DNA of 64,000 bases from Bacteroidia bacterium (GTDB taxonomy: Bacteria; Bacteroidota; Bacteroidia; JADZBD01), in contig JAGVMA010000055.1 in the NCBI GenBank assembly GCA_020054095.1, positions 1-64,000 of the forward strand, read 5' to 3'. Shown here piece by piece: positions 53,337 through 63,148 of the stretch. Position numbers and translations under genes: made by a program. The stretch's first letter is position 1. Every line of letters starts with the position of its first letter. The notes under the pieces were generated by a model, which did not search any database, was not told the origin of the DNA, and saw nothing but the letters and a program-made list of their open reading frames with translations.

Positions 53337-55112
53337 TTAAAAGCAATATTTGTTTTCGCTTATCAATTTTGCAGCCACTGTTCTTCGAGCTTCTTTCACA
53401 TTGAGCGGTTCTATTTTTGTAAAGCGCTTAATGCCCATTAACATTGCTCGTTGCTCATCACCGGTAGCAAAACTATTTATAGCATCGCGGCCATTTTTAT
53501 TTATTCTATCAGCAGCATCGTTAAAATACACTCGCATAATTTCTAATTCTGCTTTGCAATTTTCTGCACCACGCATTTCAGTTAATTTTTCTACTCTTAA
53601 TTGAAGCGATTCGCACACATATAAATCAATAAGTATATCAGCAATATTCATGAGCACCTCTTGCTCTTTTGCTAATTCCATCATTAATTTTTGAGCTGCA
53701 CCACCCGCAACCATCAGCGCTGCTTTTTTAAAATTTTTCAAATATTTTTTTTCTTTTGAAAAAAGTGTTTCTTCTTCTGTTGTAAAATCAGGGATAGACA
53801 TTAATTCGGCTGCAACGGCTTGTGCCGGCCCCATTAAATCTAATTCTCCTTTCATGGCGCGTTTCAGCATCATATCAACAATAAGCATTCTGTTTATTTC
53901 GTTAGTACCTTCAAAAATTCGGTTGATGCGCGAATCGCGATACGCTCTATCCATAGGGGCATCGGCACTATAGCCCATGCCACCATAAATTTGCACACCT
54001 TCGTCCACAACATAATCAAGCGCTTCGCTACCGGCAACTTTTAAAATTGCTGCTTCCGGTGCAAATTGTTCCACTCCTTTTAAAATTGCTTTTCCGTGGG
54101 GCATGCCCGATGCAGTAAGGGCATTAATTGCATCTTCTATGTTTTGCGATGCTCTGTAAAGTGCTGATTCCACAGCGTAAATACGAATTGCTTGTTCGGC
54201 AAGTTTGTAACGTATAGCGCCATACTTCGAAATTGGTCTGCCAAATTGATTTCGCTCATTTGAATACTGAACAGATTTTTCAGCAGTTTTTTTTGCTCCG
54301 CCTAAAGCGGCTGCAGCTAATTTTATGCGACCTACATTTAAAATATTAACAGCAATTTTAAAACCATTTTGTCTTTCTGACAATAAATTTTCTATCGGCA
54401 CCTTGCAATCATTAAAAAATACTTGGCGAGTTGAACTCCCTTTAATTCCCATTTTGTGTTCTTCCGGATTCAATGATATGCCGCCAAAACTTTTTTCAAT
54501 TATAAACGCACTTAAATTTTCATCGTTATCAATTTTTGCAAACACAACAAACACATCTGCAAAACCACCATTTGTAATCCACATTTTTTGCCCGTTTAAA
54601 ATATAATGTTTGCCATCGGCTGATAAAACTGCTTTTGTTTTTCCTGAATTTGCATCAGAACCCGACCCCGGTTCGGTTAAACAATAACAAGCTTTCCACT
54701 CACCATTAGCTAGTTTAGGTATGTATTTTTGTTTTTGCTCATCGTTGCCATAATATAAAATTGGAAGCGTGCCTATGCCCGTGTGTGCCGATATAGAAAC
54801 TGCAAACGAATGTCCGGCTCCCAAAACTTCGGTGGCGAGCATACCTGTTACGAAATCTTTTTCAAAACCTCCAAACTGCTCAGGAGCATTAATGCCGAGT
54901 AAACCAAGTTCGGCAGCTTTATCTAAAAGTTTTACTGTTAAACCATCTTCTTGCGCATCTATTTTATCGAGCTGTGGCCAAATCTCCTGCGCTAAAAAAT
55001 CGGTACAGGTTTGTATTATCATTTGCTGCTCTTCGCTTGCTTGCTCAGGAATAAATATGTCTTTTGCTTCGGTTTCTTTTATCAGAAATTCTCCGCCTTT
55101 TGTAATTGCCAT
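53337..55112 (-). CDS. Acyl-CoA dehydrogenase (long-chain type, with C-terminal extension)
   Basis: 591 residues, longer than the 380-residue core because of a C-terminal helical extension, as in very-long-chain acyl-CoA dehydrogenases. Core motifs: YCLTEPGSGSDANSGKTKA (substrate/FAD loop), KMWITNGGFADVFVVFA, and VDEGVQIYGGMGYSADAPMDRAYRDSRINRIFEGTNEINRMLI. It makes 2-enoyl-CoA in the first step of beta-oxidation, using FAD. In related Bacteroidota this gene directly follows the fadN-fadA pair; here a 4.5-kb glycan block stands between. Confidence 0.95.
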   Translation of the reverse strand: MAITKGGEFLIKETEAKDIFIPEQASEEQQMIIQTCTDFLAQEIWPQLDKIDAQEDGLTVKLLDKAAELGLLGINAPEQFGGFEKDFVTGMLATEVLGAGHSFAVSISAHTGIGTLPILYYGNDEQKQKYIPKLANGEWKACYCLTEPGSGSDANSGKTKAVLSADGKHYILNGQKMWITNGGFADVFVVFAKIDNDENLSAFIIEKSFGGISLNPEEHKMGIKGSSTRQVFFNDCKVPIENLLSERQNGFKIAVNILNVGRIKLAAAALGGAKKTAEKSVQYSNERNQFGRPISKYGAIRYKLAEQAIRIYAVESALYRASQNIEDAINALTASGMPHGKAILKGVEQFAPEAAILKVAGSEALDYVVDEGVQIYGGMGYSADAPMDRAYRDSRINRIFEGTNEINRMLIVDMMLKRAMKGELDLMGPAQAVAAELMSIPDFTTEEETLFSKEKKYLKNFKKAALMVAGGAAQKLMMELAKEQEVLMNIADILIDLYVCESLQLRVEKLTEMRGAENCKAELEIMRVYFNDAADRINKNGRDAINSFATGDEQRAMLMGIKRFTKIEPLNVKEARRTVAAKLISENKYCF

Positions 55113-55222
55113 AGGTTTATTTTTTTAATTTTTACATATAGGAGTAAAGTTAATATAAATCTGTATTGCATAAATTAATACGGTTTAATATTATTTGTAT
55201 TTTCAATTCATCAAACTACATA

Positions 55223-56624
55223 ATGATTAAATCATTTATATATAAATCACTTTTTTTTATTTCCGTTTTTATTTCCATCCGAATTTTTATTCCATTTAAT
55301 GGATTATACGGACAAGATGGACACGAATATTACAGATATGCAGTACAGCTAAAAAACTTTTTTCTCAACGGTGATAATCCAGGAACATATTTTTGGCCTT
55401 ACGGCTACCCTGCATTGGGAGCGTTGCTATCTTTTTTCTTCTTGAGCATTGATTTATCATTACAAATTGTATCAGTACTTGGCGCGTTAATGTGCTTTTA
55501 TTTTTCTACACGAATTATAAAAGAGAACTATGGTGATAATAAAATCGCGGAAAATTATATTTTTCTTTTTCTTTTGCTCTCTCCATTTGTGATTCGCCAA
55601 TCATTATTAGTAATGGCTGATATGATAGCTGCCGGTTTTATAACCGCTGCTTACTATTATTGCGTTCGTTACTTTAAAACTGAGAATGTTAAGTATGGTT
55701 TGTTTTTTTTTTGTTTTTTGCTGCGCTGCATTTTTTTTCAGGTATGGATCCTTTTTATTACTCTTTATTCCGGCTTGCTGCATTGCTTATTCGTTAATCA
55801 AAAAAAAGAATACACTTAGTGTTTTAATGATATTGATGGTTGGGCTGCTTTTTTTTATTCCACATCTTTTACTAAATGTAAATGCGGTTGATTTTTTAAA
55901 TCATAATTTACTTTCCAGCTGGAATATATTTAATTTTCTAAAAAGCGATTTTAACACAATAGATGGTCGCAGTCAATACATGTTTCCAAATTTGGTTTAT
56001 ACAGTTGTCCGCCTTTTTCATCCCGGCTATTTTGTTGCCGGAGTGTTTTTTCTTGCTATAGCTATTTTCAAACACAAGTTTTTAGCGATTGAAAAAATAA
56101 TGATGTTTTCGGTTTTAGCCTACTTTGTTTTCTTGATGGGAGCTCCATTTCAAAATTCACGCTTTTTCATCATAGCAATGCCATTATTGGTTGTTACTTC
56201 GTTTTTTGGTTACTGTTTTTTGATGGATAGAATTAAGTTTAATAAGTATTTGATTTTTAGTTTTATTGTAACCCTTCAACTTGTTTTATTTTGGCAATCT
56301 GCACAAGTGTTTTTTCAAAGAAATAAGTTAGAATTATCAATTTCAGAATATATTAAAACTAATACAGCGAGTAAAAACATTTATTCGTTTGATATGGATG
56401 TTTCATTGAAAACATACATAAGCGATAGAAACATAATTGGGTTGTATGCAAAAGTCCATTCATCGTTTGAGCACAATAGCTTGGTGCTTTTCAACGAAAA
56501 ATTATTTTCAACTCAGTGGAGCCAAAAAAATCCAATGCTTAACTGGTATGAATTAACAAATAATTACATGCTTGTGAGCATTAAAAAATTTGAAAACGGT
56601 TGGCAACTTTATGAAATCAAATAA
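55223..56624 (+). pseudogene. GT-C type membrane glycosyltransferase, split by a +1 frameshift at a poly-T tract
   Basis: Frame 1 runs from the ATG at 55223 (or 55166) to 55819; the same protein continues in a second frame from about 55686 to 56624. Removing one T from T10 at 55703-55712 (or T8 at 55731-55738) joins the two into 466 residues. The N-terminal half has FNGLYGQDGHEYYRYA after helix 1 (an Asp in the first loop, as in GT-C catalysts) and PYGYPALGALLSFFF. Many membrane helices follow. The end is soluble (YISDRNIIGLYAKVHSS ... FENGWQLYEIK). Such proteins transfer sugars from lipid carriers. It may be phase-variable, broken or a sequencing error. Confidence 0.72.
55703..55712 (+). repeat. 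Homopolymer T10 at the frameshift
   Basis: Ten consecutive T bases, followed within 20 bases by T6 (55714-55719) and T8 (55731-55738). It lies where the two halves of the glycosyltransferase go out of frame. Confidence 0.9.
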
Positions 56625-57675
56625 GCATATAGTTTGGCTTTGCCAGGGCTTTGCGGCAAATGAGCAAGATGACACTTGCATTCCGGCTCAGCAGGTTTTT
56701 TTAAAATCTTTTCAAACGCACCACCCTGATTTTCAGATTACGATTATCAGTTTTCAGTATCCGTTTTTTGCTGGTATATATAATTACCACGCAACAAAAG
56801 TTTATTCTATTGGTGGTAAAAATAAAAAATGGCTCAAAAAAATTCATACTTGGAAAAAAGCATGCGATATTTTTAAGCAGTTGCACAGTGAAAAACCAAT
56901 CGATTTAATTCATTCGTTCTGGTTTTCGGAGTGCATGGTAGTTGGTAATTATTTGTCGCGTAAATATAAATTACCGCATATAAATACATTAATGGGGCAA
57001 GATGTTTTACCTGCTAATCGGTACCTGAGAAAATATTTTTACGATAAAACCCTAACTGTTGCATTGAGTAAAAGGCATGCAAATGAGTTTACGAAAAACA
57101 CATCTAAAATCCCTGATTACATTATTCCATTTGGAATAGATGAAATTGAGCTTGACGAAACATCAATAAAAGACTATGATGTAGTTGCGGTTGGCTCATT
57201 AGTAAATGTGAAACGCTATCAATTGTTGATGGAGGCAGTTTCAATAATTAAAAAAAAGCGAGCGGAATTTAAGGCAATAATTATTGGTGATGGTCCAGAA
57301 AAAAAGGGCCTCATGCAAAAGGCAGGGCAATTTGGTTTAGGCAATAGTGTTTTTTTTGCCGGTAGTTTACCACGCAGCGAGGTGTTAGATATGATGAGTA
57401 GATGTAAAGTTTTTGTTCACACTTCTGCTTTTGAGGGAGTTGGCTTTGTTTATTTGGAGGCAATGCTTTGTGGCTTACCCATTGTGTCTTATCCAGCGGG
57501 TATTATTGAAAATTCAGAAACTGCAAAAATTGTAAACTCGGTAGATGAATTGGCAGATGCTGTTTTGTTTTTCTTAGATTCCCAAATTATAACAAAACGT
57601 AAACTGCCTATCACGGCCAAGCAAACTGCCGATGCCTACTATCAGTTGTATCAAAAAGTATCTAAATCACCGTAG
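56611..57675 (+). CDS. Family 4 glycosyltransferase
   Basis: 354 residues from the ATG at 56611 (an in-frame ATG at 56590 adds seven). GT-B fold: N-terminal acceptor domain with DLIHSFWFSECMVVGNYLS and NTLMGQDVLPANRYL, C-terminal nucleotide-sugar domain with VVAVGSLVNVKRYQLLMEAV, IIIGDGPEKKGLM, FFAGSLPRSEVLDMMSRCK and the EX7E motif in AFEGVGFVYLEAMLCGLPIVS. It retains donor configuration. It overlaps the end of the GT-C gene, forming a unit with it, and converges on the GNAT gene with a 25-base overlap. Confidence 0.9.
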   Translation: MKSNKHIVWLCQGFAANEQDDTCIPAQQVFLKSFQTHHPDFQITIISFQYPFFAGIYNYHATKVYSIGGKNKKWLKKIHTWKKACDIFKQLHSEKPIDLIHSFWFSECMVVGNYLSRKYKLPHINTLMGQDVLPANRYLRKYFYDKTLTVALSKRHANEFTKNTSKIPDYIIPFGIDEIELDETSIKDYDVVAVGSLVNVKRYQLLMEAVSIIKKKRAEFKAIIIGDGPEKKGLMQKAGQFGLGNSVFFAGSLPRSEVLDMMSRCKVFVHTSAFEGVGFVYLEAMLCGLPIVSYPAGIIENSETAKIVNSVDELADAVLFFLDSQIITKRKLPITAKQTADAYYQLYQKVSKSP

Positions 57676-58589
57676 TTAAATCGTAGTTTTTCAAGTGGTA
57701 TTTTGGTGTTAAACGCTTTATATACAATAGCCCATGAAGAGAATGTGTTGAAGTGCTTTTGTAAAATAAGTTCTTGTTTACTTCTTGGATGGTATTGTAG
57801 CACAATCTCTCTCAATCCCCAACTACGCGCAATTTTTTTCAATTCAAAGATTGTTTCATGAAGTTTTGATTCATCATCGGTGTCAATATCTCCCACTTGT
57901 AAAATTTCATCTGCTTTAAGCCAAGCATTTATGCCATTAATGTTTGCAATAAAATTTGGTGCAAAAGATTTGTATTTGTAGAACTGCTCATCACGCAGTA
58001 CAGTTGCAAATTCATCATTGTTTAGCGAGTGCGGAAAGTACTGAGCGATGTTACGAGTGCCAAATGATTTATTTTTTACGAATCTTTGATAAATACCTTT
58101 TAAGCCAAGTCTTCTGCAAATAAACTCAATTGGCAACGCATTTGTTTTTATTTTAAATCCGATCACTCGCTCCGTGTGTTGCCATTTTAATTTGTTTATA
58201 TACGTGTACTCCGAATTTTGATTAGGCAAACCGTAAGCGAAATTAACACCATCTTTTTTTAATTCATTTTCAAGCATTGTGCCTAATAGTGAAAAAATTC
58301 CTTTGCCGTTATATTCTTTTAGTGTCATTCCATCGCCAAACTGCGCACCAAGCTCCGTAATGTCTTTATATTTTATTCTGAACAACACGCATCCGTGAAA
58401 GCCAATTGGTTTATTATTTACATCAAATGCTATAAAGCCGTAATATGATTTACCTAAATATGACGTATCGTATTTTCCTTTTAAATATGCTAATGAAACT
58501 TTTTTACCAAATACATTTTTATACAAATGAATCAAGTGGAAGATGTTTTCTTCGTTTAATCTTTCTGCTTTATGAAATGGCAATTGCAT
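57651..58589 (-). CDS. GNAT family acetyltransferase of a glycan cluster
   Basis: 312 residues. The N-terminal GNAT domain shows YYGFIAFDVNNKPIGFHGCV and the acetyl-CoA loop region QFGDGMTLKEYNGKGIFSLL (residues about 86-105), then NFAYGLPNQNSEYTYINKL. A second GNAT-like half follows. Members of this type occur in polysaccharide clusters and acetylate amino sugars or lipids. The start overlaps the stop of the deacetylase gene by one base, so deacetylation and re-acylation of one glycan is a fair hypothesis. Confidence 0.75.
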   Translation of the reverse strand: MQLPFHKAERLNEENIFHLIHLYKNVFGKKVSLAYLKGKYDTSYLGKSYYGFIAFDVNNKPIGFHGCVLFRIKYKDITELGAQFGDGMTLKEYNGKGIFSLLGTMLENELKKDGVNFAYGLPNQNSEYTYINKLKWQHTERVIGFKIKTNALPIEFICRRLGLKGIYQRFVKNKSFGTRNIAQYFPHSLNNDEFATVLRDEQFYKYKSFAPNFIANINGINAWLKADEILQVGDIDTDDESKLHETIFELKKIARSWGLREIVLQYHPRSKQELILQKHFNTFSSWAIVYKAFNTKIPLEKLRFNYGDLDTF

Positions 58590-59581
58590 TAGTAATATGT
58601 GTTATTGAAAATTGCAGTCATTTGGTTGAATAGTGATATGTGAGTATTAACAACTAACCTTGTTTTTAAAATTGGAGTTTCATTTGCCTTGCTTAAATAA
58701 TCTTCGGTGGTGAGCAGTTTTGTATAGCCCACATTGAACGCTTTATTGCAAAGTTCTTCTGAATATGATCCATCAGGAAAAGCAAGTGAGTCAATTTTTT
58801 TCTGCATTACATTTTCCAAATACAATTTGGATTTTATGAGTTCTGTTTCCGCATCCTGGATCTTTATTTTATCTAAACAATTGTGATAATAGCCATGTGC
58901 TCCTATATTTGCATACTTTGATTCACTTAATAACTTAATTTCATTTTCACTTAGAAGTTGCCAGTATTCATTATAATATTTGTTTGACGTAATCTCTTTT
59001 GCACCCGGCAAAATTTTCATCATCTCGACTTTGTAAGAGTAATCACTTCCCTTGCAAATTTGCTTTAGTGTAGCATTTGTTTTAGCAGATACGTAGCCTT
59101 TTTGGGGTTTGTAAATAAACTTTTCATTGCGTAGGTAAAAATCGCTTTGATTTGCATTGCTTGCCAGATCTAAGCAATCTGCCCAAAGCATATCACTCCC
59201 TGAATTGCGAATGGTGGTGATAAAAAATGTAGCGGGTATTTTATATTGCTCAAGTAATGGCAAGGCACGATGTAAGTTATTTGCATAGCCATCATCAAAT
59301 GTTATTACAACGGTTGGAGACTGCTCGTCAAAGTTTTTATTGTAATAATCGTTTAGTGAAATTACGTTGCAGTTTTCGTTGAAAAATTTTATATGTTGCT
59401 CGAAAATATTTTCGCTAATGAATCTTGAATTGAACTTGGTATTGTTAATCTCATCTATACCGTGATAAACCAAAATAATACATGTCGGTTTTACTGTCGA
59501 AGATATTTTTTTAATATTTAAACCAAACAGCGCATCATTTATTTTCCATTTTAAATGCTGTTTTGCTTTTTTAATAATCAC
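58589..59581 (-). CDS. Polysaccharide deacetylase (NodB-type carbohydrate esterase 4)
   Basis: 330 residues, GTG start 12 bases after the thiolase stop. NodB motif 1 is VVITFDDGYANNLHRALPLL (catalytic base and metal Asp); motif 2 is IGAHGYYHN (HxxxH metal site); FPDGSYSEELC is a later conserved element. ILVYHGIDEI near the N-terminus is typical. No clear signal peptide, but the N-terminus is hydrophobic enough for peripheral binding. It removes N-acetyl groups from a polysaccharide or lipid-linked sugar. Confidence 0.9.
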   Translation of the reverse strand: MIIKKAKQHLKWKINDALFGLNIKKISSTVKPTCIILVYHGIDEINNTKFNSRFISENIFEQHIKFFNENCNVISLNDYYNKNFDEQSPTVVITFDDGYANNLHRALPLLEQYKIPATFFITTIRNSGSDMLWADCLDLASNANQSDFYLRNEKFIYKPQKGYVSAKTNATLKQICKGSDYSYKVEMMKILPGAKEITSNKYYNEYWQLLSENEIKLLSESKYANIGAHGYYHNCLDKIKIQDAETELIKSKLYLENVMQKKIDSLAFPDGSYSEELCNKAFNVGYTKLLTTEDYLSKANETPILKTRLVVNTHISLFNQMTAIFNNTYY

Positions 59582-59593
59582 ACCAGTTTCGTT

Positions 59594-60769
59594 TTACAAC
59601 ATTTCAAATATTCCAGCAGCGCCCTGGCCTGTACCAACGCACATACTTACAATTCCGTATTTTTTATTCTGACGTTTTAATTCTGAAAATAATTGCACCG
59701 ATAATTTTGCTCCGGAACAACCCAACGGATGTCCGAGTGAAATTGCTCCGCCATTTACATTCACAATTTCTTGGTTGATGTTTAACTCTCTGCAAACTGC
59801 TAAAGATTGAGAAGCAAATGCTTCGTTCAATTCGATCATATCAATTTGACCTAAATTCATTCCGGCTAATTTCAAAGCTTTTGGGATAGCGGCAACCGGA
59901 CCGATTCCCATGATTCTTGGAGGAACACCAGCAGCAGCAAAACTCACCATTCGCGCAATTGGTTTTAAATTATTTTCTTTCAAAAATTTCTCGCTTACAA
60001 TCATTACAAATGCTGCTCCGTCACTTGTCTGAGATGAGTTACCGGCAGTCACACTTCCTTTTGCATCAAATACTGGTTTTAATTTTGCCAATGCCTCAAG
60101 CGTTGTATCGGCACGCGGACCTTCATCTGTTTCTACAATAAAATCTCTGGTTTTTTTCTTTTCGTTTTCATCAAGATACGTTTCAGAAATTTTAACTGGA
60201 ACGATTTCGTTTTTGAATTTCCCTTCTTTGATGGCTTTGATTGCTTTCATGTGTGAATTGAAAGCAAATGCATCTTGGTCTTCACGACTGATTTTATATT
60301 CATTCGCAACGGCTTCTGCAGTCAATCCCATTCCCCAATAATGATCAGGATGCGCGAGTGCAACACCAGCATGTGGAACAATTCTCCAGCCACCCATTGG
60401 AATTAAACTCATACTTTCTGCTCCACCGGCAACAATGCAATCAGCCATACCTGCGTGAATTTTTGCAGCAGCTATTGCTATTGTTTCTAATCCCGAAGCA
60501 CAATATCTGTTCACGGTCATGCCTGCTACTTTGTCGGTGTTAAAAGCCATTAACGAAATCAATCTCGCCATGTTTAATCCTTGTTCTGCTTCGGGCATTG
60601 CGTTACCAACAATCAAATCATCTACTTGATCATGTGCAATGTTCGGAACGCTAGCCATCAAATGTTTGATAACATCTGCTGCCAAATCATCCGGACGGGT
60701 GAATCTAAATCCACCTCTGTTAGCTTTTCCTACTGCGGTTCTAAAACCTGCTACTATAAATGCATTCAT
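59594..60769 (-). CDS. fadA: Acetyl-CoA C-acyltransferase (3-ketoacyl-CoA thiolase)
   Basis: 391 residues. The nucleophile is Cys90 in MTVNRYCASGLETIAIA; the other catalytic elements are NGGAISLGHPLGCSGAKL (His) and MCVGTGQGAAGIFEM (Cys) at the end. It performs the thiolytic last step of beta-oxidation. It follows the fadN-type gene by 3 bases, a clear operon. A biosynthetic acetyl-CoA acetyltransferase role is less likely in this context. Confidence 0.95.
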   Translation of the reverse strand: MNAFIVAGFRTAVGKANRGGFRFTRPDDLAADVIKHLMASVPNIAHDQVDDLIVGNAMPEAEQGLNMARLISLMAFNTDKVAGMTVNRYCASGLETIAIAAAKIHAGMADCIVAGGAESMSLIPMGGWRIVPHAGVALAHPDHYWGMGLTAEAVANEYKISREDQDAFAFNSHMKAIKAIKEGKFKNEIVPVKISETYLDENEKKKTRDFIVETDEGPRADTTLEALAKLKPVFDAKGSVTAGNSSQTSDGAAFVMIVSEKFLKENNLKPIARMVSFAAAGVPPRIMGIGPVAAIPKALKLAGMNLGQIDMIELNEAFASQSLAVCRELNINQEIVNVNGGAISLGHPLGCSGAKLSVQLFSELKRQNKKYGIVSMCVGTGQGAAGIFEML

Positions 60770-60772
60770 ATT

Positions 60773-63148
60773 TTAGTTTCTTAAAATTTTACCACCTGTA
60801 ATAATTGACTGTAATCTTTCCAATGTTTTTCTTTCTCCGCAAAGCGATAAAAATGCTTCACGTTCTAAATCCAACAAATATTGTTCGCTTACCAATGTTG
60901 GAGATGATAAATCACCACCGCATAAAACGTAAGCTAATTTTTGAGAAATTTTTACATCGTGTTCGCTAATGTAATTTCCAACCTGCATAGAGTTTGCACC
61001 TAAGTAGGCCAATCCTAATGCTTGTTTTCCAAGTACACGGATATCTTTGCGTGCCGCAGGTTTTGTATAACCTGCTTCTGCTAATTCAATGCAATTTAAT
61101 TTTGCTTCTGATAAAACACGATTGCGAGAAACTACAACTACATCTTTTCCTTTACGCAAATAACCTAAATCAAATGCTTCATATGCAGATGTTCCTACTT
61201 TTGCTTGTCCGATTGTTAAGAAACGATCACGGAAATTATTCAATTCAATATCTCCATCTTGTAATTCATCCGATAAACGAACTGCAAACTCTTTTGTTCC
61301 GCCACCGCCCGGGATTAAACCTACACCAAATTCTACCAATCCCATATAGGTTTCGGCATGAGCAACTACTCTGTCGGAATGCATACTCATTTCGCAAGCG
61401 CCACCCAATGCTAAATTGTGAGGTGCTACAACAACCGGAATGGAAGAGTAGCGTACACGCATCATGGTGTTTTGGAAAGTTTTGATTGCGAAATTTAATT
61501 CATCGTATTCTTGTTCAACCGCCATCATAAAGATCATTCCCACATTTGCTCCTGCAGAAAAGTTTGCTCCTTCGTTGGAGATAACCAAACCTCTGAAATC
61601 TTTTTCTGCTATCTCTATTGATTTGTTGATCCCTTCAATAACTTCTGCACCAATGGAATTCATTTTTGTATTCCATTCTAAGTTCAAAATTCCATCTCCA
61701 ATATCCGTCAATGTTGCACCGCTGTTTTTCCAAACTGTTTTGTTGGCACGAATATTATCCAAGATGATAAACGATTCTGTTCCAGGAATTACTTTAAATG
61801 TTTTTGATGGAATGTCGTAATATTTTTTGCTTCCGTTTTCTACTTTATAAAAAGAAGTTGCTCCGGAAGAAAGCATATCGTAAATCCATTGTGCGGGTTT
61901 GTTGCCTGCCGCTTCCATGGCTTTCACTGTTTCTGCAACGCCCAATGAATCCCAAGCTTCAAATGGTCCTAGTTCCCAAGCGAAACCGGCATTCATGGCT
62001 GCATCAATTTTATATAGTTCGTCTGTGATTTCGGGAATGCGATTGCTAACGTAAGCAAACAAACCGTAAAAAGAAGTGCGATAAAAATCTCCAGCTTTAT
62101 CTTTTCCTGCTAACAATACTTTCATTCTATCGCGAAGGTTGTCGATCGTCTTAGTTTGTTCTAATGTTGCAAATTTTGCTTTTACCGATGGTTTGTATTC
62201 CAATGTTTTTAAATCCAACGAATGAATTTCAGATTTTCCACCAGCACCCTTTACCTTTTTGAAAAAGCCTTGTTCTGTTTTACTGCCCAGCCATTTGTTT
62301 TCTACCATTTTAGAAACATAACCTGGGATTTTGAAAACGTCAATGGCTTCGTCTTTCGGACAGCTGGCTGCAACTCCGTTGGCAACGTGTACCAATGTAT
62401 CTAATCCTACAACATCGCAAGTACGGAAGGTTGCAGATTTCGGTCGGCCTAAAACGGGTCCAGTTAATTTATCTACTTCATCAATGGTTAAACCCATTTT
62501 TTCAACGGTGTGAAACAAACTCATGATTCCGTAAACTCCAATTCTATTAGCAATAAATGCTGGAGTGTCTTTACATAAAACAGTAGTTTTCCCTAAATAC
62601 AATTCGCCATACTTCATTAAAAAATCAACTACTTCAGGTGACGTTTTTGGTGTTGGAATAATTTCCAACAATTTTAAATAGCGTGGAGGATTAAAAAAGT
62701 GAGAGCCACAAAAGTGCTTTTGAAAATCTTCACTTCGTCCTTCATTCATCAAATGAATGGGAATACCAGAAGTATTAGAAGTAATTAATGTTCCAGGTTT
62801 GCGGAATTTTTCTACGTTACCGAAAACTTGTTTCTTGATATCTAATCGTTCAATTACAACTTCAATAATCCAATCGCAAGTCGCGATGTCTTTCATGTTA
62901 TCATCAAAGTTGCCGGTTGTAATACGTTTTGCAAATGCTTTGCGATAAATAGGAGAAGGGTTCGATTTTAAAGCAAACGCCAATGCATCATCCACAATTT
63001 TGTTTCTGGATTTTTTATCCGCAGCAGCATCTTTTGGCACAATATCCAAAAGAATCACTTCAATACCAATGTTAGCAAAATGACAAGCAATTCTGCTTCC
63101 CATTACACCTGAACCAAGAATGGCTACTTTTTTAATTGTTCTGTTCAT
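60773..63148 (-). CDS. 3-hydroxyacyl-CoA dehydrogenase/enoyl-CoA hydratase (FadN type)
   Basis: 791 residues. The NAD-binding hydroxyacyl-CoA dehydrogenase domain comes first (VAILGSGVMGSRIACHFANIG at the N-terminus; FCGSHFFNPPRYLKLLEIIPT with the catalytic His; KDTPAFIANRIGVYG) and the crotonase domain second (SSIPVVVAPHNLALGGACEM, GLVEFGVGLIPGGGGTKEFA with the catalytic Glu residues). This order, reversed relative to E. coli FadB, is that of Bacillus FadN. It performs steps two and three of beta-oxidation and is co-transcribed with fadA. Confidence 0.95.
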   Translation of the reverse strand: MNRTIKKVAILGSGVMGSRIACHFANIGIEVILLDIVPKDAAADKKSRNKIVDDALAFALKSNPSPIYRKAFAKRITTGNFDDNMKDIATCDWIIEVVIERLDIKKQVFGNVEKFRKPGTLITSNTSGIPIHLMNEGRSEDFQKHFCGSHFFNPPRYLKLLEIIPTPKTSPEVVDFLMKYGELYLGKTTVLCKDTPAFIANRIGVYGIMSLFHTVEKMGLTIDEVDKLTGPVLGRPKSATFRTCDVVGLDTLVHVANGVAASCPKDEAIDVFKIPGYVSKMVENKWLGSKTEQGFFKKVKGAGGKSEIHSLDLKTLEYKPSVKAKFATLEQTKTIDNLRDRMKVLLAGKDKAGDFYRTSFYGLFAYVSNRIPEITDELYKIDAAMNAGFAWELGPFEAWDSLGVAETVKAMEAAGNKPAQWIYDMLSSGATSFYKVENGSKKYYDIPSKTFKVIPGTESFIILDNIRANKTVWKNSGATLTDIGDGILNLEWNTKMNSIGAEVIEGINKSIEIAEKDFRGLVISNEGANFSAGANVGMIFMMAVEQEYDELNFAIKTFQNTMMRVRYSSIPVVVAPHNLALGGACEMSMHSDRVVAHAETYMGLVEFGVGLIPGGGGTKEFAVRLSDELQDGDIELNNFRDRFLTIGQAKVGTSAYEAFDLGYLRKGKDVVVVSRNRVLSEAKLNCIELAEAGYTKPAARKDIRVLGKQALGLAYLGANSMQVGNYISEHDVKISQKLAYVLCGGDLSSPTLVSEQYLLDLEREAFLSLCGERKTLERLQSIITGGKILRN

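Follow-up and report, generated by a model that had tools for sequence, protein, structure and literature searches.

In Vibrio cholerae O1, which offers a close described counterpart of the locus presented here, poly-A tracts lie in the O-antigen genes wbeL and manA, and a slip of one base truncates the product (PMC3441752). That report describes isolated variants, demonstrated reversion of manA and a wbeL tract that is conserved in strains, as well as a wbeL allele, one base short, from which some product was nevertheless made through non-standard decoding of its A7. Elsewhere, A/T runs of nine nucleotides are described as slippage-prone in many bacteria (PMC1088944), an A11 run in Citrobacter leads to about 20% of full-length TssM (PMC4256274), and two-ORF dnaX genes with an A10 are published as predicted recoding (PMC3711429). 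The gene that we describe, a putative membrane glycosyltransferase of the GT-C type broken at a run of ten T (T10), resembles the V. cholerae case in that an A/T homopolymer lies in a surface-glycan gene and a one-base slip truncates it; it differs in encoding a GT-C protein and in being known from one assembly. It resembles two-ORF dnaX in that an A/T run coincides with a frame change while the sequence is conserved on both sides, and dnaX of the same genome shows this too, whereas a tract of this kind is widespread across the class in dnaX but not in the GT-C gene. Our literature searches found no report linking a poly-T tract, a glycosyltransferase, slipped-strand mispairing and phase variation, and the sole match to a search for Flavobacterium phase variation with homopolymeric glycosyltransferase genes concerned Clostridium flagella.

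The window, that is, the whole stretch of 64,000 nucleotides analysed here (C68:1-64000), belongs to a draft genome of 3.17 Mb (87 contigs, 35% GC). The 5′ part of the GT-C gene, ORF1, has its listed start at a TTG at 55166; from the ATG at 55223 (MIKSFIYK...) it extends to 55819 on the forward strand, comprising 198 codons and a stop at 55817-55819, and encodes 163 amino acids up to T10 (55703-55712). The 3′ part, ORF2, occupies 55686-56624 of the same strand in the +1 frame and has 312 codons from its first ATG. The two frames overlap over T10, a T6 run (55714-55719) and a T8 run (55731-55738). ORF1 up to T10 followed by ORF2 from T10 gives a single polytopic protein of 466 residues, and in a MAFFT alignment with 22 homologues the two parts join at T10 without a gap. 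As the family frame through both T6 and T8 in this alignment is that of ORF2, the break is at T10, and a break at T6 or T8 was rejected. The idea of two separate proteins was rejected as well, because the homologues are single frames and the ATG of ORF2 lies just 17 bases 5′ of T10. The original prediction, in which frames overlapping across these three T runs formed one GT-C gene of 466 residues interrupted at T10, thus agrees with both the coordinates and the alignment. A mononucleotide tract within this gene sets its frame by its length, which is one of the features by which SSR phase-variable genes are recognised.

T10 is the longest T run of the window, in which a first-order model expects 2.7 runs of at least ten T and one is seen; genome-wide, there are 24 A/T runs of length 10, seven of length 11 and none longer. 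The tract forms codons of a Phe run and, since Phe is written as TTT in about 83% of cases in this genome, three Phe codons yield T9 without any special selection. As such, T10 is no rarer than chance; what goes beyond chance is that the frame of a family protein conserved in both halves changes at precisely this point. Relatives have not retained the tract. The original prediction had proposed a check of orthologues for a similar tract: no T run longer than 7 occurs at the join in the 22 class homologues, nor in those named relatives whose join could be located, 62 of 80 (longest run 7 in both sets). Such retention is not required of every phase-variable gene. Likewise, relatives have no conserved slippery run at the frame change, by which programmed transcriptional slippage would be recognised, and this lack of conservation, together with the origin of the tract in three Phe codons, argues against an evolved contingency locus.

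Neither half of the window gene matched any Pfam family, and a PDB sequence search with the GT-C family profile gave no match. When five homologues were scanned with Pfam, L010 (PMT_2, 27.8 bits, cut-off 26.1) and L011 (EpsG, 32.0, cut-off 30.1) passed, L013 and L016 stayed below the cut-off and L031 had no match; three further homologues, L238 (26.0), L227 and L244, were all below it. We take PMT_2 and EpsG to be GT-C families. For the Kordia jejudonensis homologue L238, modelling with AlphaFold2 (pLDDT 92.7, pTM 0.90) gave a multi-TM GT-C fold. Foldseek ranked ArnT first (5ezm, E 2.0e-6), as did VIA-align (5f15, Z 26.0, with an rmsd of 4.1 over 419 residues; 5ezm tied), and PMTs, ALG12 and oligosaccharyltransferases came next. 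An alignment of 42 homologues contains an invariant F-x-GLYGQD block together with an invariant Met, two Arg and a Glu. The Asp of GLYGQD, invariant in all 42 and corresponding to residue 32 of the N part of the window gene, lies in the first outer loop, where GT-C enzymes are expected to carry a catalytic acidic residue, and a putative catalytic role may thus be assigned to it. As in ArnT, this Asp sits in the loop that follows the first helix, and we assume that it is equivalent to the ArnT catalytic Asp; the differences are an identity of 9-10% and the FNGLYGQD motif that marks the present family. The predicted identity of the gene as a GT-C superfamily member, probably an ArnT-like membrane glycosyltransferase, is thus supported through the fold modelled for the homologue L238. 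On this model T10 falls near residues 178-180, inside helix 175-187. The N part contains the GLYGQD loop and the C part an invariant Arg just past the break, the later Arg and the Glu, so that the product of the present frame, consisting of ORF1 only, should be inactive.

The family frame is well preserved among relatives. It was matched without an internal stop in 22 of 22 class homologues (in L029 it runs up to the end of the contig). Of the 80 named relatives, 72 have a frame of 420 codons or more, five are cut by the locus edge and three were missed by the motif; the two sets overlap by at least 11 loci. No match to the gene was found in G001, the only genome of the same family that was searched, and a first scan of the genome contigs with the C part as query returned no relative. 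The window gene keeps 28 of 33 consensus residues in the N part and 33 of 40 in the C part, which is within the range of 15 intact members (31/47 to 40/43 for the C part), and the C part bears no second lesion. As both halves keep the consensus as well as intact members do, the frame break would be either young or not real, and the view that two intact halves make decay unlikely has held up.

The setting of the gene points to surface glycans. Its 3′ end is overlapped by a GT4 glycosyltransferase gene (56590-57675, forward strand), followed on the reverse strand by a gene for a GNAT-like acyltransferase (57651-58589, Pfam match just below the cut-off) and by a polysaccharide deacetylase gene (58589-59581). 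We searched a few kilobases around the GT-C gene in 83 loci (the 80 named relatives and three other stretches), and relatives of the three neighbours occurred in 45, 11 and 10 of them, respectively. These neighbours suggest that the window gene stands in a small surface-glycan module, and the GT4 and deacetylase genes in particular bear out the surface-glycan context that had been proposed. The four glycan genes are flanked by fatty-acid oxidation genes, namely an acyl-CoA dehydrogenase and a thiolase/hydratase pair (window 53337-63148). In L011 and L313, thiolase and hydratase/dehydrogenase genes also adjoin the GT-C gene, and L313 has hydratase, thiolase, GT-C and GT4 together.

We then considered how the genome as a whole treats long A/T runs. 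In a sample of 306 genes (372 kb, made up of the window and 20 hand-chosen stretches, one of which, C36:60001-80000, was taken for its polysaccharide genes), sense runs of at least nine A were seen 10 times against 55.1 expected from synonymous shuffles, and sense runs of at least nine T five times against 18.4 expected, with none of 60 synonymous shuffles as low. In-gene A/T runs of at least nine are thus depleted 3.7- to 5.5-fold while runs of eight are not, and selection against runs begins at nine, the same length at which slippage is described for many bacteria (PMC1088944), which indicates that such runs are either unstable or misread in this genome. A census covered all 31 A/T runs of at least ten and 102 of the 213 runs of exactly nine. 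Of its 134 tracts (one run of at least ten being counted twice), 93 lie in ORFs of at least 100 amino acids, 90 ORFs altogether, and the remaining 41 were inspected by eye, the breaks among them being those in L077 and L147. Pfam was run on 49 of the 90 ORFs and on the window part, and the rest were classed by eye. In total, 83 ORFs with runs of at least nine are unbroken versus five clean broken genes, so long runs are not generally misread.

Besides the window gene, the clean breaks concern four genes. A second polytopic, GT-C-looking gene (L067:818-2451; C19:25218, 25659) is broken at a T9 and a T10; its homologue L124 is one frame of 563 codons and matched no Pfam family. In a GT4 gene (L077:1358-2528; C36:63853), the N-terminal 54 codons lie in another frame ahead of an A11, and this 54-residue piece likewise had no Pfam family. 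A TMTC-like membrane protein gene with TPR repeats (L147:1320-3021; C28:110022) is broken at a T9, and all five fetched homologues are continuous. The fifth broken gene is dnaX. Genes broken at A/T runs of at least nine are thus mostly glycan or membrane glycosyltransferase-like genes plus dnaX, a pattern recognised post hoc. In Fisher's test, four broken glycosyltransferase-like genes against nine intact Pfam glycosyltransferases (one of them, the EpsG protein L149, below its cut-off) and 74 other intact ORFs gave p = 0.0014, a post hoc value that depends on looser labels for two of the genes; when the labels were restricted to those backed by Pfam or by a fold, p was 0.12. The duplicate L149/L070, the ambiguous L056 and L059, which has several breaks, were excluded from the tables, and L073:2870, an unbroken GT4-like frame, stands outside them.

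Runs of G or C were also encountered. A G14 run (C49:16425-16438; L221:1495-2007) splits a lipoprotein gene whose remainder lies in another frame, and it is the strongest-looking poly-G candidate for phase variation that we found in the genome; in Neisseria meningitidis, the strong candidates for phase variation most often carry G/C runs (PMC5084427). A C11 run (C17:7398-7408; L222:1429-3000) lies close to where a large secreted protein begins, with two possible ATGs in different frames relative to it, and the length of this tract might select the N-terminus of the protein. A9 runs stand at the starts of a GT4-like gene (L056:1500; C19) and of a possible secreted protein gene (L042:1230; C10), where the main frame is without an obvious start codon; perhaps they act as start-codon frame switches.

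Frame breaks are not confined to long runs. A methyltransferase gene (L172:2334-3020) and a MORN-like repeat gene (L076:663-1672), both on C36, appear frame-split at A7, and a membrane protein gene (L059, about 490-2330; C20:13891) is broken at a T7, a short G run and a T9, so that it is either a decayed gene or a stretch of poor consensus. A frame HMM was applied to 464 kb with 135 same-strand junctions, of which it flagged 14. By eye we accepted two of these as breaks, neither of them at a homopolymer (L205:4391 on C8 and L214:9190 on C79), and regarded the others as gene ends or noise, three of them near runs of 7-8 (L198, L202, L211). Within its own sample the HMM missed the window T10, the C36 GT4 gene at A11 and the C36 methyltransferase at A7; it therefore undercounts, and its near-silence elsewhere is weak evidence. 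Both scattered consensus indels and a mutator would yield such a pattern of breaks at short runs. As regards a mutator, the sole MutS_V gene of the genome (C62; L315:1-2252) is frame-broken, with a frame of 758 codons followed by 124 C-terminal codons in another frame. Its C-terminal part was sought in 20 relatives and matched in 19; the frame that contains it has 867 codons or more in 18 of these and 452 in G009. By its C-terminal domain mutL is whole, with a frame of 624 codons. The mutS break lies near a short A run (A4) with no long homopolymer, and it is either a true indel, which would make the strain a possible mismatch-repair mutator, or a consensus error. In Vibrio, mutS deletions raised indels 102- and 142-fold, the single-base ones falling mostly in homopolymers (PMC5854121); if the mutS break is true, slippage at runs like T10 could by analogy rise about a hundredfold.

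The dnaX gene offers a different perspective. In this genome it leaves the tau frame at an A11 (L092:876-2664 / L093; C84:121043). We compared 30 loci, i.e., the own gene and the best 29 of 58 relatives with a match, and an A9-A11 run stands at the same place in 23 of them, sometimes in the tau frame and sometimes out of it. The frame is broken there in five of the 30, own gene included, while a sixth short one (L098) is merely cut by a contig end. The dnaX A-run thus appears to be a recoding site that is common but differs in polarity from one relative to another. This pattern suggests that RNA polymerase of this lineage likely slips on runs of such length, so that the T10 gene need not be wholly silent. 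Classic slippery A/U heptamers lead to -1 ribosomal frameshifting; the frame change required at T10 is +1.

How should the T10 break be understood? We lean, with slightly better than even confidence, towards a genuine, slippage-made OFF allele of an otherwise intact GT-C gene. Other slippage-type breaks in the genome, in dnaX and at least three further genes at A/T runs of nine or more, speak for slippage. They have to be set against the chance of a consensus or assembly error, in which case the true tract would keep one frame and there would be nothing to switch. A homopolymer of ten is a classic error site in a draft of 87 contigs, and the breaks at short runs in mutS, the methyltransferase gene, the MORN-like gene and L059 are compatible with scattered consensus indels. 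However, the preponderance of unbroken ORFs at runs of nine or more (83 to five) is not what general misreading would give, and errors would not be expected to single out glycan or membrane genes, where most of the breaks at long runs lie, if one bears in mind that this concentration was noted post hoc and has p = 0.12 under strict labels. Error therefore seems to us unlikely, though not negligible.

If RNA polymerase slipped on T10 so as to yield a constant fraction of full-length product, the gene would be set low rather than off, as in dnaX. The own dnaX gene outside the tau frame at A11, the A9-A11 runs in 23 of 30 loci with five broken, and the published observations on A10 dnaX genes (PMC3711429) and on runs of nine A or T (PMC1088944) all fit such recoding; but the GT-C tract is not conserved, unlike that of dnaX, and genes avoid runs of nine or more as if slippage were harmful, and we find this explanation improbable, if a serious alternative to an OFF state. 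Plain decay, in which a mutator lineage with broken mutS irreversibly lost the GT-C gene and others under relaxed selection, could draw on the mutS break itself, on the several breaks of L059 and on the other genes broken at A7. Against it stands a C part that is free of further lesions and retains the consensus at 33 of 40 residues, and slippage at T10 is reversible in principle; we consider decay quite improbable. Very improbable, finally, is a coupled system in which loss of the mutS frame raises slippage at every A/T run of at least nine, such runs having been left mainly in surface-glycan glycosyltransferases (with the G14 lipoprotein in addition), so that a mutS switch would set the rate of whole-surface variation.

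For the favoured OFF allele, the following course of events may be proposed. The intact enzyme would work on the outer side of the inner membrane and draw its sugar from a polyprenyl-linked donor, both donor and acceptor being presumptive. Slipped-strand mispairing during replication would alter the length of the T tract in vivo. Translation from the ATG at 55223 would then leave the family frame at T10 and stop at 55819, with about 300 residues lost, including the invariant Arg and Glu, and the present allele would be OFF. As the lost part is still conserved, the allele should be recent, and it would be potentially reversible by the same slippage, with a corresponding change in glycan phenotype. 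Such tracts would become hypermutable once MutS is lost. A little full-length enzyme might still arise through RNA-polymerase slippage on U10, in which case the OFF allele is possibly leaky. Selected phase variation at T10 is plausible, and the allele, which would work like homopolymer phase variation, is a candidate member of that class.

Homopolymer on/off instability is a well-known kind of switch, and the window GT-C gene would most likely be another case of it. For annotators, a note of caution follows: when a glycosyltransferase gene in such a genome is split between frames, this does not have to mean an error or a pseudogene. If the proposed reading is true, homopolymer slippage diversifies the surface glycans of a Bacteroidota-type bacterium, and this would be relevant to phage resistance and to niche adaptation beyond the well-studied pathogens.
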